This document shows, piece by piece, positions 2,657 through 31,980 of a stretch of 36,549 nt of DNA. The translations under genes were made by a program, and so were the position numbers. The stretch lies in the NCBI GenBank assembly GCA_024711005.1, contig JANJTQ010000022.1:1-36549 (forward strand), given 5' to 3'. A model generated the notes under the pieces. That model saw only the letters and a list, made by a program, of their open reading frames with translations. It was not told the origin of the DNA and did no database searches. The stretch's first letter is position 1; every line of letters begins with the position of its first letter. This stretch comes from Opitutaceae bacterium (GTDB lineage Bacteria > Verrucomicrobiota > Verrucomicrobiia > Opitutales > Opitutaceae).

Positions 2657-3598
2657 GTGAACGCCTCCTGGGACACCCTCAAGCTCCTCTCCGATCCCAC
2701 GCGCCTGCGCCTCCTCGCGCTCCTGCTGCGCGAGGAACTGTCCGTCGCCGAGCTTCAGGAAATCCTCGGCATGGCCCAGTCGCGCATATCGTCGCAACTC
2801 GCCCTGCTCCGCCAGGCCGATGTTGTCATCGACCGCCGGGACGGGAAAAAAGCCTTCTATTCGCTGCGGCCTACTCTCGACGCCAAAACCCTCGCGCTCC
2901 TCCACGCGGCCTGCGACTCCGTCGGCGAACTGCCGGAACTCGCCGAGGACCGCGCCAACCTCGACCGCATCCTCAAAAAACGCCGGCACCATCAGGAGCA
3001 GTACTTCAATCTGATCGCCGGCAAGCTCGGCAAGAACTACTGCCCCGGCCGCTCCTGGGAAGCGATCGGCCACCTCGCCCTGCGTCTCACGCCTCGCATT
3101 GTCATCGCCGATCTCGGAGCGGGCGAAGGCCTCCTCTCGCAACTCCTCGCCCGTCGCGCGAGCAAGGTCTGGTGCATCGACAACTCCCCACGCATGGTCG
3201 AGGTCGGCACCGAACTCGCCGACAAAAACGGCCTCGCGAATCTCACCTACAAGCTGGGCGACATCGAGAGCGTTCCTCTTCCCGACAGATCCGTCGACCT
3301 CGCCATCCTCAGCCAGGCCCTGCACCACGCCCAGCATCCCGAGATCGCCGTCAAGGAAGCGCATCGGATTCTCAAGCCCGGCGGTCAGGTCCTCATCCTC
3401 GATCTCAAAGAGCACTCCTTTGAAAAAGCCCGCGAGCTCTACGCCGATGTGTGGCTTGGCTTCAAGGAAAGCGCCCTCCACGGCTATCTTAAAAAATCCG
3501 GCTTCCAACAGGTCGAAGTAACGACCGTCGCCCGCGAGGAAAAAGAGCCCTGGTTCGAGACCCTTCTCGCAAGCGGCGTAAAGCCCGGCCGCGGCTAA
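2657..3598 (+). CDS. ArsR-type HTH fused to SAM-dependent methyltransferase
   Basis: About 313 residues. Residues 1-75 look like an ArsR/SmtB winged helix (LKLLSDPTRLRLLALLL, then the recognition region MAQSRISSQLALL and the wing DRRDGKKAFYSL). Residues about 110-313 form a class I methyltransferase with motif I ADLGAGEG (151-158), an acidic residue after the next strand (CIDNS) and the post-I segment HHAQHPEIAVKEAHRIL typical of Methyltransf_11. Such fusions are known in many bacteria, often beside methionine/SAM-cycle genes, where they may sense SAM or its products. Here it follows rpoN by one base. The GTG start is set by that spacing. The TAA stop lies inside the left end of a 171-bp repeat (3594-3764), so the last residues may have been reset by that element. 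Substrate and DNA target are unknown. Confidence 0.85.
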   Translation: MNASWDTLKLLSDPTRLRLLALLLREELSVAELQEILGMAQSRISSQLALLRQADVVIDRRDGKKAFYSLRPTLDAKTLALLHAACDSVGELPELAEDRANLDRILKKRRHHQEQYFNLIAGKLGKNYCPGRSWEAIGHLALRLTPRIVIADLGAGEGLLSQLLARRASKVWCIDNSPRMVEVGTELADKNGLANLTYKLGDIESVPLPDRSVDLAILSQALHHAQHPEIAVKEAHRILKPGGQVLILDLKEHSFEKARELYADVWLGFKESALHGYLKKSGFQQVEVTTVAREEKEPWFETLLASGVKPGRG

Positions 3599-3764
3599 GC
3601 CGTAAAGATTCAGTCGAAGGCGGAGTAGCGGGGTAAGATGACGAGCAGATTTCGGTGGTGAATGACCAAGGAATACCCGGCGGGTATTTCGCCGGGAATG
3701 AAACACCGAAAACGGCCGTCAGATTATCTCGATACGACCCTCTCGACTGAATTTTCGGCTAAGC
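3594..3764. repeat. 171-bp structured intergenic element, copy A
   Basis: This segment is about nine-tenths identical to 30825-30995 and has the same length. Nested pairings are visible. The outer arms pair 3594-3602 with 3756-3764 (one mismatch) and ATTCAGTCGA (3608-3617) with TCGACTGAAT (3743-3752). An inner stem pairs GGTAA/TGACG (3632-3643) with CGTCA/TTATC (3717-3728) around a tandem GA/GA internal loop. A further stem pairs TTTCGGTG (3650-3657) with CACCGAAA (3704-3711). A terminal hairpin is AATACCC-GGC-GGGTATT (3672-3688). Compared with copy B the outer arm shows two compensatory base-pair changes. It lies between convergent genes, and its left end supplies the stop codon of the methyltransferase gene. 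It could be a miniature mobile repeat or a structured RNA; the function is unknown. Confidence 0.85.
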
Positions 3765-28111: not shown

Positions 28112-30676
28112 TTATGGTTTCATCACGAGTTGCGTACGCAGTTTTTTTTGAAAATACCTGCGTGCGAATGCCTTCAGATCGGCGATGGTCACCGCATCGA
28201 TGTGCGCGTCATACGTGGCGGCATCGTCGACCGGCAACCCATAGAGCGTGTTCAACCCGGCGTGCATTGCCCGCGCACCATTTGTCTGAAGTCCCATGCG
28301 ACGGCCGGCCTTCAGACGAGTTTGGCAGCGCACCAACTCGGTCGCGTCCACCCTGCCGGCCTGCACGCGGGCGATCTCCGCATCGATTTCGGTCAATACT
28401 TCGCTGGCGGTGGCGGGCGCGGTGCCCGCGTAAAACATAAACATACCCACATCGATTCCCGTCACGCGGCTGGACCGCACAAAATAGGCCAGTCCTTTTT
28501 CCTCCCGAACCCGTTCGAACAAGCGCGACGACATGCCGCTGAAAAGTTCATCCGCCACCTCTCCGATGTAGTAGTCGTCCGCCAGCAACCCCGGTCCGGG
28601 AAAAGCCTGGAACACCACGGCCTGTTCGCGCGGTTGCTTCTCGATAAAATCGCCCACCTCGCCCGGCTTGGTAAACACCGCCGCACGCTTGGGCGCAGCG
28701 CCCCGCGGTAGCTTGGAGAGGAAGGCCTTCAATTTCGGCCCCAGCACCTTCGGGTCAAAATCTCCCGCCGCGACCAGGACGACGTTGCCCGCCACGCCTA
28801 GGCGTTTCCACAATGCGGCAAGATCGGCCGGCTTGAGCGCGGTGAGCCCTTCGATTGTCCCGTGCGAATCAATGCCGAACGGATGAGCACCGAAAAACTT
28901 CCGGCGAACGAGCTTCTTGCCAACCGTCACCACATCGTCGGCGTCCTGTTGCAAGTCCGCGAGCTGTGCGTCGCGCTCCACCTCGAAACTCGCCCGTTTA
29001 AAGGCAGGTGTGAGCACCGCGTCCGCCAGCGCTTCGATCGCGCGTGTCGCATCGCCCGGCAGCACCTCGGCCGCGAGACCAAAGCTGTTGTTGCCCGAAA
29101 ACGGGTAGAACGAACCCCCGACCTCCTCGATGAATTTTGCAACTTCGGCGGCCGAGCGTTTCTTCGTGTCCTTGGTGAGCAAGGTCGCCAGCAGCGAAGT
29201 CGCGCCGCGCAATCCGGCCGGTTCGTGAACCGGCCCGCCTTCGCATAGCAGGCGCAGGTGGAGATTCGGCAGCCGTCGATCCGGCCGCAGCAACAGGCGC
29301 GCACCGTTTGGCAAGGTCTGCTCGACGAATGAATCGGGCACACGATCCGTTACGACGATCGTGGATGTCGCGGGTTGCGCGGTCTTGGGATTCAAGGACA
29401 CGGCGGTGACGCGTCCGGCTCCAAGATAAGCACGCAACACGCGGCGCAGGTCCGTGGCCTTCACGCGTGCGAGACGGGCGAAATACGCCTTCGCAAAGTC
29501 AATATCACCCGCCACCACCTCGGCGGCGCCGAGTCGCGACGCCTGTCCCGACATGGTCTTGCGAGTGTTGATTTCGCCGACCACCAGCTGGCGAAGCGCC
29601 TTGCGGATCTGTCCGGCGGTGAACCCCTTCGCGGCCACGCGGTCGAGTTCGTGCCGTACCGCGGCCGTCGCGGCTTCACGATTTCCTGGTTCGCAGACAA
29701 AGGAAATATAGAACAGTCCCGTCTCGCCGGGATTCCAACTGGTCGCGTCGATGCTGTGAACGAGTCGCGCTTTCTCCCTCAAGGCCTGCCAAAGCACCGA
29801 GCTGTCACCCTGCCCCAGCAGAACCGCCAACAAATCAAGGACCGGCGCATCCGGATGAGTCAGCCCGGGGATCTGCCACGAAAGCCCCGCCCGGGTCAGC
29901 TCGACATCCTCGTAGCGGTGCAGTGCGCGCGGAGCGAGTTGGGGAGGCTCCGGCAATACCAACACCGGCGCCAGCTTGGCGCGCGGCGCGGAACCGAAAT
30001 GAGCTTCAACCTGGACGCGCACGGCCTCCGGATCGACATCGCCCGCGACCACCACCACCAGATTATTGGGCACGTATCGGGCCCGATAATACGCCAGCAG
30101 ATCGTCGCGGGTGACGGCGGTGAACACGTCCTTGTAACCAATCACCGGATACCGATACGGATGCTGGCGGAACGCGGTGTCGAACAACGCCTCGCCCAGA
30201 CGATGGTCCGGGTCGTCGTTGCCCATGGCGATCTCGCGCAGGATCACGTCCTTCTCCCGCGCGACTTCGTCGGCGGGCAACGTCGAATGGAGGACAGCGT
30301 CGGCGAGCACGTCGAGCGCCACGCCCACATGCGCGGACGGCAGATCAATGTAGTAAACGGTCCGGTCAAACGTGGTGTAAGCGTTAATGTTGCCACCGTG
30401 CGCCTGCACCGTCGTCGAAATTTCACGTCCGGCTCGACGCTCCGTGCCTTTGAACAGGAGATGCTCCAAGTAGTGTGAAAGCCCCCCGCCGAGCAGTCCG
30501 CCTTCGTGAATACTGCCCGTCTTCACCCAGACTTGCACGGAAGCAACGGACGCAGATGTGTCCCTCTGCACCAGCAGAGTGAGGCCATTGGCTAGCACAG
30601 CTCGCTCGGGAGGCAGCTTCCAAAAGGTTTCGAGTAGGCGGAGATCTGAAGCGAACGAAGAATTGGATTTGGACAT
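28112..30676 (-). CDS. M16-family zinc protease with two fused M16 domains
   Basis: 854 residues from the ATG at 30676; upstream in-frame starts pass through intergenic hairpins and the 171-bp repeat and are rejected. The first domain has the inverted zinc motif HYLEH (H68, E71, H72) with the downstream glutamates of EKDVILREI, so it should be catalytic. The C-terminal half (from about 440) is a second M16 fold without HxxEH (GLRGATSLLATLLTKDT), the usual inactive partner. Two-domain M16 peptidases such as PqqL-like proteins close like a clamshell over short peptides. No clear signal peptide is seen at this start, so cellular location is uncertain. The intergenic region upstream contains several hairpins and no obvious promoter box. 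Confidence 0.92.
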   Translation of the reverse strand: MSKSNSSFASDLRLLETFWKLPPERAVLANGLTLLVQRDTSASVASVQVWVKTGSIHEGGLLGGGLSHYLEHLLFKGTERRAGREISTTVQAHGGNINAYTTFDRTVYYIDLPSAHVGVALDVLADAVLHSTLPADEVAREKDVILREIAMGNDDPDHRLGEALFDTAFRQHPYRYPVIGYKDVFTAVTRDDLLAYYRARYVPNNLVVVVAGDVDPEAVRVQVEAHFGSAPRAKLAPVLVLPEPPQLAPRALHRYEDVELTRAGLSWQIPGLTHPDAPVLDLLAVLLGQGDSSVLWQALREKARLVHSIDATSWNPGETGLFYISFVCEPGNREAATAAVRHELDRVAAKGFTAGQIRKALRQLVVGEINTRKTMSGQASRLGAAEVVAGDIDFAKAYFARLARVKATDLRRVLRAYLGAGRVTAVSLNPKTAQPATSTIVVTDRVPDSFVEQTLPNGARLLLRPDRRLPNLHLRLLCEGGPVHEPAGLRGATSLLATLLTKDTKKRSAAEVAKFIEEVGGSFYPFSGNNSFGLAAEVLPGDATRAIEALADAVLTPAFKRASFEVERDAQLADLQQDADDVVTVGKKLVRRKFFGAHPFGIDSHGTIEGLTALKPADLAALWKRLGVAGNVVLVAAGDFDPKVLGPKLKAFLSKLPRGAAPKRAAVFTKPGEVGDFIEKQPREQAVVFQAFPGPGLLADDYYIGEVADELFSGMSSRLFERVREEKGLAYFVRSSRVTGIDVGMFMFYAGTAPATASEVLTEIDAEIARVQAGRVDATELVRCQTRLKAGRRMGLQTNGARAMHAGLNTLYGLPVDDAATYDAHIDAVTIADLKAFARRYFQKKLRTQLVMKP

Positions 30677-30708
30677 GAAAAACAACGAACGATGCGCATC
30701 CCCGTTGG

Positions 30709-30736
30709 CGGTGCGAGCGGCTTTAGCTCGGCACCG
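30709..30736. repeat. REP-like hairpin
   Basis: CGGTGC-GAGC / GCTC-G-GCACCG, a 6+4 bp stem with one bulged G and a 7-nt loop, 33 bp upstream of the M16 start. The first of five palindromic structures between 30709 and 31115. Confidence 0.5.
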
Positions 30737-30751
30737 ATTTAATCTCCCCGG

Positions 30752-30793
30752 GGTGGCATGCGAGCGAGGCGATCCCGCCTGATGTCGCCACCG
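30752..30793. repeat. Nested hairpin
   Basis: Outer stem GGTGGC / GCCACC (30752-30757 with 30788-30793) encloses an inner hairpin AGGCG-ATCC-CGCCT. It lies between the M16 start and copy B of the 171-bp element. Confidence 0.45.
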
Positions 30794-30824
30794 GACACCC
30801 ACCCAACCGGACGCCGCGTCGTTG

Positions 30825-30995
30825 CTTAGCCGTAACAATTCAATTGAAGGCGGAGTGGCGGGGTAAGATGGCGAGCGATTTCGGTGGTGAATGACCAAGG
30901 AATACCCGGAGGGTATTTCGCCGGGAATGAAGCACCGAAAGGTGCCGTCAGATTACCTCGGTACGACCCTCTCAATTGAATTTTTACGGCTAAGC
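30825..30995. repeat. 171-bp structured intergenic element, copy B
   Basis: Second copy of the element at 3594-3764, in the same orientation. The outer arms pair GCTTAGCCGTAA (30825-30836) with TTACGGCTAAGC (30984-30995), then CAATTGA (30841-30847) with TCAATTG (30972-30978) after a small bulge. The inner stem pairs 30862-30873 with 30946-30957, keeping the tandem GA/GA loop. The next stem pairs TTTCGGTG (30879-30886) with CACCGAAA (30933-30940), and the terminal hairpin is AATACCC-GGA-GGGTATT (30901-30917). No open frame with a plausible product fits it. Terminal inverted repeats and two dispersed copies would suit a miniature mobile element; the conserved internal architecture would also suit an RNA. 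Confidence 0.85.
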
Positions 30996-31004
30996 CCGTT
31001 CAGG

Positions 31005-31035
31005 CGGAAACAGCCTAGGCCCGCATAGGCTTCCG
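31005..31035. repeat. Short hairpin adjoining copy B
   Basis: CGGA-AAC-AGCCTA / TAGGCT-TCCG with an 8-nt loop begins 9 bp after the end of the 171-bp element. It may belong to a larger composite repeat with it. Confidence 0.4.
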
Positions 31036-31053
31036 TACCGCCGCTCCGAGCGT

Positions 31054-31115
31054 GCAGCCGAGGTCACGAGGCTGGCTGGAGGGTGGAGAACACCCGGCCT
31101 CGTTACCTCGGCTGC
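31054..31115. repeat. 62-bp long imperfect palindrome
   Basis: Stem GCAGCCGAGGT / ACCTCGGCTGC (11 bp) continues as ACGAGG / CCTCGT and GGGTG / CACCC near the tip. It lies 7 bp beyond the stop of the minus-strand deacetylase gene. There is no T-run on either side, so it is unlikely to be a normal intrinsic terminator, but it could protect the mRNA 3' end or be a repeat element. Confidence 0.6.
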
Positions 31116-31122
31116 CAACCCC

Positions 31123-31980
31123 TCAGACCAGCGTCATCAATTTACCCGGAGGCAGGTCGACGAGTTTACCGTCCACGTTGAGCGTAATCGTCAGCGCACT
31201 CGGATTGAACGCGGTCTTTCGGTTGGCCGCGATCTGTACCCGACGGCGCGCCTCCTCGTAATCGAACAGCTCGATGTTGGTGCAGTACCACACGTCCGCA
31301 TGACCCGAGAGCGGCTTGTAGATCCGCTCGATCCCCGCCCAGTCGTTCTTGTCGAAGAACTCAAAGGCATGGCCCCAGACATAGAACACGCCCGAGTAGC
31401 GGGCGTTGCCGTGAAGTTTTTCAAATCTCTCAGGCACCGTCGGATCGGATGCGTATTGATGCGCCGTGCTCGCCCACGCAAGCGGCTCGGCGGGCGGGAA
31501 ACAGTTGGCCGCATTTTCGCACGTGCGGCTGTAGACGATACCCAAACCACGCAGCGTTTCGATGACCTGCGGACTGAATGCGCCGAACGGATAAGCCATG
31601 CCGCGCACCGGATAACCCACCAGGTCCTCGAGCGCCTTGCGGTCCTCCAGCACCTCGGTCGCGATCTGCGAAGCATCGAGCCGATCAAGCCAGGGATGCG
31701 TGACGGTATGGATCGCGACTTCGTGGCCGCGGTAAACCTCCGCGACCTCGGAGGCGTCGAGATACGTGCGCGTGCCGGACTCGACCGCGGGCTTTCCGGT
31801 CCGCTGAAGTTTGCCCGAGTTGATGTTGAAGGTGCCCTTGAGTCCCCACGCGTTGAAGGCCTCCACAACACGGCGATCAAAGGTGTGCCCGTCATCGAAA
31901 CTGGTGGTGACAGCGATGCGTTTTCCGGCGGGAAAACGGCAGATTTCAATGCGAGCAGGGACGGTGGATTCGGAGCTCAT
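31123..31980 (-). CDS. Polysaccharide deacetylase (CE4 / NodB-type)
   Basis: 285 residues, cytoplasmic by sequence (no signal peptide). The NodB fold motifs are visible: motif 1 TTSFDDGHTFDRRVV with the catalytic Asp and metal Asp, motif 2 HEVAIHTVTHPWL with the two metal histidines, and motif 3 GMAYPFGAFSPQV. Members remove N- or O-acetyl groups from chitin, peptidoglycan or xylan using a divalent metal. The C-terminus (SALTITLNVDGKLVDLPPGK) looks like a short beta extension. Lack of an export signal suggests an intracellular oligosaccharide or other small substrate. The gene stands alone. Its promoter probably lies in the AT-rich stretch from 32008, where TTGGAC-17-TTAACG can be read on the minus strand. 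Confidence 0.92.
   Translation of the reverse strand: MSSESTVPARIEICRFPAGKRIAVTTSFDDGHTFDRRVVEAFNAWGLKGTFNINSGKLQRTGKPAVESGTRTYLDASEVAEVYRGHEVAIHTVTHPWLDRLDASQIATEVLEDRKALEDLVGYPVRGMAYPFGAFSPQVIETLRGLGIVYSRTCENAANCFPPAEPLAWASTAHQYASDPTVPERFEKLHGNARYSGVFYVWGHAFEFFDKNDWAGIERIYKPLSGHADVWYCTNIELFDYEEARRRVQIAANRKTAFNPSALTITLNVDGKLVDLPPGKLMTLV

Follow-up and report, generated by a model that had tools for sequence, protein, structure and literature searches.

A probable MITE with IS1380-type ends in Opitutaceae and a possible constraint on its folded strand during spread

The 36,549-nt stretch of Opitutaceae DNA analyzed here (hereafter the window) contains two similar palindromic repeats, A and B, and raises the question of whether these are copies of a mobile element, of a structured RNA, or of an element in which folding of one strand matters. 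Both repeats lie where the earlier note had placed them, to within 1–2 bases, 30825–30994 being 89% identical to 3595–3763. The element is near-palindromic and ca. 160 bp long, each window copy forming one long imperfect hairpin between CTNAG pentamers. Copy B, on the plus strand like copy A, has a left target-site copy CTTAG of the CTNAG pattern (30825–30829), followed by a body of 160 bp that runs from CCGTAA to TTACGG (30830–30989) and a right target-site copy CTAAG (30990–30994), the middle base of which is unlike the left one. Its left terminal inverted repeat (30830–30847), of IS1380 type, is of the same kind that bounds elements of ca. 1.54 kb in a related genome (G173), its right terminal inverted repeat occupies 30972–30989 on the minus strand, and the two enclose an inner hairpin (30848–30971, plus strand) with a conserved tandem GA loop and the apex hairpin GAATACCCGGAGGGTATTTCG. 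Copy A consists of a left target-site copy CTAAG (3595–3599), a body of 159 bp whose right terminal repeat is short of 2 bases (3600–3758), and a right target-site copy CTAAG (3759–3763). The neighbours of copy A are an ArsR-methyltransferase gene (2657–3598), whose stop codon is the TAA at 3596–3598 of the left CTAAG, and, on the other side, a gene weakly matching LacI; those of copy B encode an M16 peptidase and a polysaccharide deacetylase. Just 3' of copy B, at 31047–31117, there is a different dispersed palindromic repeat; the same stretch, in the flank of the C236 copy, matches 13 further places in the same genome.

The window's own genome (5.0 Mb in 351 contigs) and other genomes were surveyed for further copies, a check proposed in the earlier note. 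At E ≤ 6e-24, 25 places were observed in the own genome, including both window copies and partial ones, and copies were also present in other Opitutaceae. Matches at E ≤ 0.001 occurred in at least 26 of 200 sampled genomes of the family, and a class-wide search with a related copy gave matches at E ≤ 1e-6 in at least 7 of 384 genomes, all of the same family, both counts being lower bounds because four (family) or two (class) candidates were scored per genome. Among the 26, two (G051 and G080) look like chance on alignment and three (G078, G158 and G063) share the apex only. The exact apex 22-mer was found in 32 stretches of the genome collection, of which a single MAG supplied 17; all 32 are labelled Verrucomicrobiota, Verrucomicrobia, Verrucomicrobiia, Opitutaceae or Pelagicoccus, and a scan of viral contigs gave no hit. 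For alignment, a set of 48 near-intact copies was used (16 from the own genome and 32 from other genomes), nine of 57 collected rows having been left out as wrong hits, one-sided inserts, truncated or at a contig edge; 15 of the 48 had been gathered through the exact apex 22-mer, and these 15 are biased at the apex. With its many own-genome places, its length of ca. 160 bp and its lack of coding capacity, the element is multicopy, short and non-coding, as MITEs are.

Copies end in CCGTAA...TTACGG and are flanked on both sides by CTNAG. Both pentamers were legible in 26 of the 48 copies, and 23 of these have an identical CTNAG middle base left and right; the other 22 have at least one unscorable end. 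On this agreement, the element shows terminal inverted repeats with target-site duplication. Empty sites in relatives were sought at eight loci by joining the flanks of a copy. One case was clean, the joined flanks of the G000:C257 copy aligning across the junction to a congener (G117:C58). At the G000:C133 and G000:C351 loci, four stretches from relatives (one of G117, two of G200 and one of G041) were without the element and had a changed junction, and for the remaining five loci there was no relative match across the junction. With 25 places, CTNAG copies, an empty site and IS1380-type ends, the earlier proposal of an undescribed miniature mobile element is well supported, the element being best described as a MITE.

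The partner of these ends was searched for with the terminal repeat in eight relatives. In G173, paired repeats ca. 1.54 kb apart surrounded transposase frames. Seven such loci were fetched, four of which departed from the pattern by no more than one mismatch at either end, and by BLASTN six were full-length and one truncated. Two frame pieces matched PF13701 (E 1e-22 and 9e-22), and the same two matched NCBIfam transpos_IS1380 at E 4e-45 and 1e-38, with 154 and 133 bits, under the cut-off of 180. The G173 IS copies carry frameshifts, every copy read having a broken or partly read frame. On these matches, the MITE shares its terminal repeats with an IS1380-type element of a related genus. IS1247, of the IS1380 family, is described as having 1672 bp, repeats of 16/13 and a 5-bp duplication (PMC3281130). 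Of the four G173 IS copies that could be read at both ends, just one had equal CTNAG middle bases, which slightly lowers confidence in the MITE reading; since some flanks are common to several of these copies, they may have been exchanged by recombination among copies or by an assembly error. By eye, L145 (G173:C1:534060-535840) shares flanks with L148 (C1:767280-769100) and L147 (C5:165050-166830).

Truncated relics of the G173-type IS were recognised in the own genome, together with a further weak PF13701 match (C246, E 0.002), and an intact cognate transposase was not found in its 351 contigs; as contigs end inside some copies, the cognate gene may be unassembled. A search for an IS5-type cognate transposase with PF13340 was set aside: it yielded a single weak fragment from the own genome and 14 matches from 20 relatives, the loci outside G158 being without paired ends of this type. 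A second family of ca. 156 bp carries the same terminal repeats around a different, branched interior, with 24 own-genome matches at E ≤ 0.001, 21 of them at E ≤ 1e-16. Copies lie at G000:C72:4629-4784, C321:1238-1393 and C11:31856-32008, and also at L057, L060-L062 and L070, and the plus strand was the more stable in all five that were folded.

The reading that we favour, with a probability of roughly 0.83, is that the repeats are a non-autonomous MITE with IS1380-type ends, supplied with transposase in trans, whose hairpin has been kept foldable in one strand while spreading. An IS1380-family DDE transposase would recognise the terminal repeats of ca. 18 bp, and the element would insert into CTNAG and duplicate 5 bp, as suggested by its anatomy and by the IS with the same ends. 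The substitution patterns described below suggest, further, that spreading lineages would preserve the ability of one strand of the inner hairpin to fold, as RNA or single-stranded DNA, and that single copies, once inserted, would lose the fold constraint. As to a benefit, our guess is that a folded hairpin at gene edges might make insertions harmless in either orientation; this leaves the better folding of the plus strand unexplained.

The fold was analyzed for copy B and across the aligned copies. The plus strand of 30820–30999 folded at −97.1 kcal/mol (z −11.3) and the minus strand at −70.9 kcal/mol (z −7.1), none of 200 shuffles being as good in either case, and the plus strand folded better in all 48 copies, by ca. 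1 to 31 kcal/mol. The exchanged pairs reported between the window copies, CAGTCGA/TCGACTG to CAATTGA/TCAATTG, are present, as is the helix GGTAA-GA-TGRCG / CGTCA-GA-TTAYC. Over 66 pairs, target copies excluded, 89.1% of cells pair and 36 pairs have changed on both sides; for the 47 inner ones alone, these values are 88.6% and 22, and neither result was reached in 500 shuffles. Inner pairs alone have 146 cells changed on both sides versus 45 in shuffles, a value that none of the 500 attained. These counts refer to a structure derived from the same sequences. Because of that derivation, and because template switching can mimic covariation, the types of intermediate (GU versus AC) were compared.

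For this comparison, pairs were chosen in a strand-neutral way, by Watson–Crick frequency alone, and changes were placed on one FastTree tree of 70 distinct copies. Shared changes in the inner hairpin comprised 25 of GU type versus 6 of AC type (p 0.0009) and 24 purine-purine versus 10 pyrimidine-pyrimidine (p 0.024), the 25:6 ratio being drawn from a single tree, ca. 31 shared changes and rounded parsimony averages, with p-values that assume independent changes. Counted per inner pair, 13 leaned to GU and 4 to AC (p 0.049). Private changes in the same hairpin gave GU:AC 53:43 and purine-purine:pyrimidine-pyrimidine 36:30. In the terminal repeats, the corresponding ratios were 9:8 and 4:6 for shared changes, and 19:27 and 13:24 for private ones. 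An earlier shared GU/AC count of 29:6 was set aside, since pairs predicted on the plus strand favour GU.

The tandem GA loops were inspected across the family. The GA/GA loop within the helix given above, which the earlier note had called invariant, is GA/GA in only 30 of 48 copies; the conserved loop is a second one further out, GGCG-GA-GTA / TAC-GA-CCC. A profile built from the first 48-copy set found 72 near-full copies, 46 of them belonging to that set, and this loop was intact in 70. It was kept by 24 of the 26 copies outside the first set; two of these 26 (L031 and L035) duplicate first-set copies, and without them the loop is kept in 22 of 24, and in 68 of the 70 copies that are distinct. 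The pair beside the loop, 37/148, covaries (UA 29, CG 13 and GC 2 of 48). A first count of 48/48 for the conserved loop was discarded because the collecting motifs contained the GA bases. Two readings of the loops were likewise rejected: a K-turn, as there is no 3-nt bulge, and a CsrA site, as the apex loop varies.

Combined, the asymmetry of shared changes and the kept GA loop are suggestive, though not proof, of a constraint on the folded plus strand, as RNA or single-stranded DNA, during spread, and the private changes would fit a relaxation of that constraint, with neutral decay, once a copy is inserted; the step from substitution pattern to function is one that we infer. The claim of selection on structure thus stands in part: covariation keeps pairing in many copies and shared changes are strand-asymmetric, but private changes are without bias, and much of the covariation is that of the terminal repeats, for which recognition by the transposase, or correction of one arm by the other, is an equally good explanation.

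The strongest competing explanation, less probable than the favoured one and still to be taken seriously, is an ordinary palindromic MITE without selection on the fold, in which template switching (quasipalindrome correction) and shared descent keep the arms alike and covariation is a by-product. Template switching is reported in PMC8794818 to give rise to hairpins and to sustain them, with compensatory changes, and to bear on asymmetric pair frequencies in RNA stems. Consistent with this, the 16 pairs of the terminal repeats have many double changes (27 shared, 18.5 private) compared with the 42 inner pairs (22 shared, 9 private), strand bias is absent from private changes, and the same ends carry elements with other interiors. 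Arm correction should, however, erase mismatches, yet the GA loop stays in 22 of the 24 distinct copies outside the first set while its neighbour 37/148 covaries among the 48, and plain correction predicts equal GU and AC, at variance with the shared inner ratios for GU over AC and for purine-purine over pyrimidine-pyrimidine. Nor is a one-base mutation bias obvious as the source, a weaker point in that A>G exceeds T>C in unpaired columns as well. In raw counts, without normalisation for base content, shared changes away from pairing in inner pairs were C>T 11.5 versus G>A 4.6 and A>G 6.7 versus T>C 0.5, and shared changes in unpaired columns, which are purine-rich, were C>T 3.2 versus G>A 15.5 and A>G 12.4 versus T>C 0.3.

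The position of copies relative to genes bears on a second alternative, in which the element seeks stop codons or is retained by selection on the host as a 3'-end element. Genes were called with a simple codon-usage caller trained on the window's own genome, and background CTNAG sites (n = 309) came from a 356-kb sample. None of 48 copies lay inside a called gene, versus 225 of the 309 background sites; none of 52 was spanned by one, and three genes ended ca. 30 nt within a copy. Of the 48 copies, 21 have a terminal TNA that serves as stop codon to an adjacent gene, and divergent gene pairs flank a mere 3 of 48 classified copies, as this alternative would have it. Non-coding background CTNAG sites, however, supply stop codons in 30 of 81 cases, so that there is no excess to indicate stop-codon seeking (p 0.46), the deficit of divergent pairs has p 0.06 against background, and private changes carry no strand-specific constraint. 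To account for the overlap with stop codons, it is enough that the element targets this sequence and avoids genes, and we consider this alternative improbable. Insertion at a gene's own stop keeps the stop, since TNA is a stop on one strand whatever N is. Orientation relative to co-directional neighbours was 17 versus 11, an unclear bias, and this makes a strand-specific role in host mRNA less likely. In L003 (G000:C165), by eye, the insertion lies at the extreme end of a gene for a PEP-CTERM-like protein, the frame of which continues into the element, and the element provides the stop.

A host gene for a structured non-coding RNA, or a cis-regulatory RNA, that merely became repeated is very improbable: covariation and strand-specific stability would agree with it, and to that extent the earlier idea of a structured RNA holds, but the target copies, the empty site, the ends common with an IS, the unclear orientation to genes and the lack of bias in private changes, which makes single copies unlike a conserved RNA gene, all argue against it, as do the absence from the window of any Rfam family at gathering score (the sole match at E ≤ 10 being MIR831, a microRNA-precursor model, with 22 bits against a gathering score of 100) and the absence of promoter-like or terminator-like sites at 30600–31200 in a consensus scan.

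Hairpin MITEs are common, and their fold may be of consequence for the element, for the host or for neither of them. Under the MITE reading, the kind of element is a known one, in a variant with a suggestive signature of fold selection during spread. In the present element, changes can be separated into shared ones, made while spreading, and private ones, mostly made after landing, with the strand signature in the shared ones only; by this split, the function of a fold can be tested directly in a mobile element. Like Correia/NEMIS, ERIC (RU-1), YPAL (RU-2) and QMITE2, the element is ca. 100–200 bp long, non-autonomous and flanked by target duplications. Transcripts of these systems are predicted to form long stems, and most of them are described as having terminal inverted repeats, those of YPAL being described as internal (PMC2229807, PMC10969869). 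By comparison of descriptions, the Opitutaceae element is set apart by its host phylum, its IS1380-type partner, its CTNAG target, the occurrence of its apex core in IS5-type elements as well, and a strand asymmetry confined to those inner-hairpin changes that several copies share. It resembles IS1380-family elements in having terminal repeats of the kind that bound the G173 elements and 5-bp target copies, and differs in being without coding capacity, about a tenth as long and, by eye only, without likeness in the interior. REP/REPIN elements, GTAG-tagged ones of which are reported to be strongly enriched in Opitutus terrae (PMC3733652), are likewise dispersed palindromes near genes with ends that often supply stop codons; unlike these REPs (20–40 bp, with a GTAG-tagged end), the element is ca. 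160 bp long and has long terminal repeats and 5-bp target copies. In the literature searched, as judged on titles and abstract openings, no element of this kind was found for Opitutaceae.

The apex also occurs between other ends. The apex GGAATACCCGGAGGGTATTTCG is exact in five loci of Pelagicoccus and relatives (L079, L083, L086, L089 and L092), whose ends are of the kind TNA abutting GAGACTGTCCAATAAGTC, the TNA agreeing at both ends in four of the five by eye. In G158, elements of ca. 0.9 kb with TNA-type ends carry pieces of an IS5-type transposase (PF13340), which fall just under the cut-off of NCBIfam transpos_IS5_3; with such pieces between such ends, these elements are the likely partners of the five apex loci. 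By sequence, one hairpin core appears between two unrelated sets of ends, whether through descent or exchange. That the element depends for its spread on the folding of one of its strands, as RNA or as single-stranded DNA, and that the core is a portable module of IS1380- and IS5-type MITEs within Opitutaceae, is a tentative proposal that we hold to be rather doubtful; if true, the interiors of MITEs would be exchangeable, a single apex module being found between ends that belong to two transposase families.

Two further observations concern IS5-type ends and the apex. Very long nested palindromes of ca. 160–290 bp lie inside IS5-type ends in G078 (L114-L117, L125-L127 and L129), several with matching TNA at both ends; with flanks, they fold down to ca. 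−207 kcal/mol, with a strand preference that is not constant. A recurrent small-hairpin module of ca. 60 nt, with hairpins that we take to be of the GNA-loop kind, is inserted beside the apex in some copies, namely L151, L153, L155 and L156 (G173, G164) and L037 (G118), as if the hairpin grew by nested insertion.
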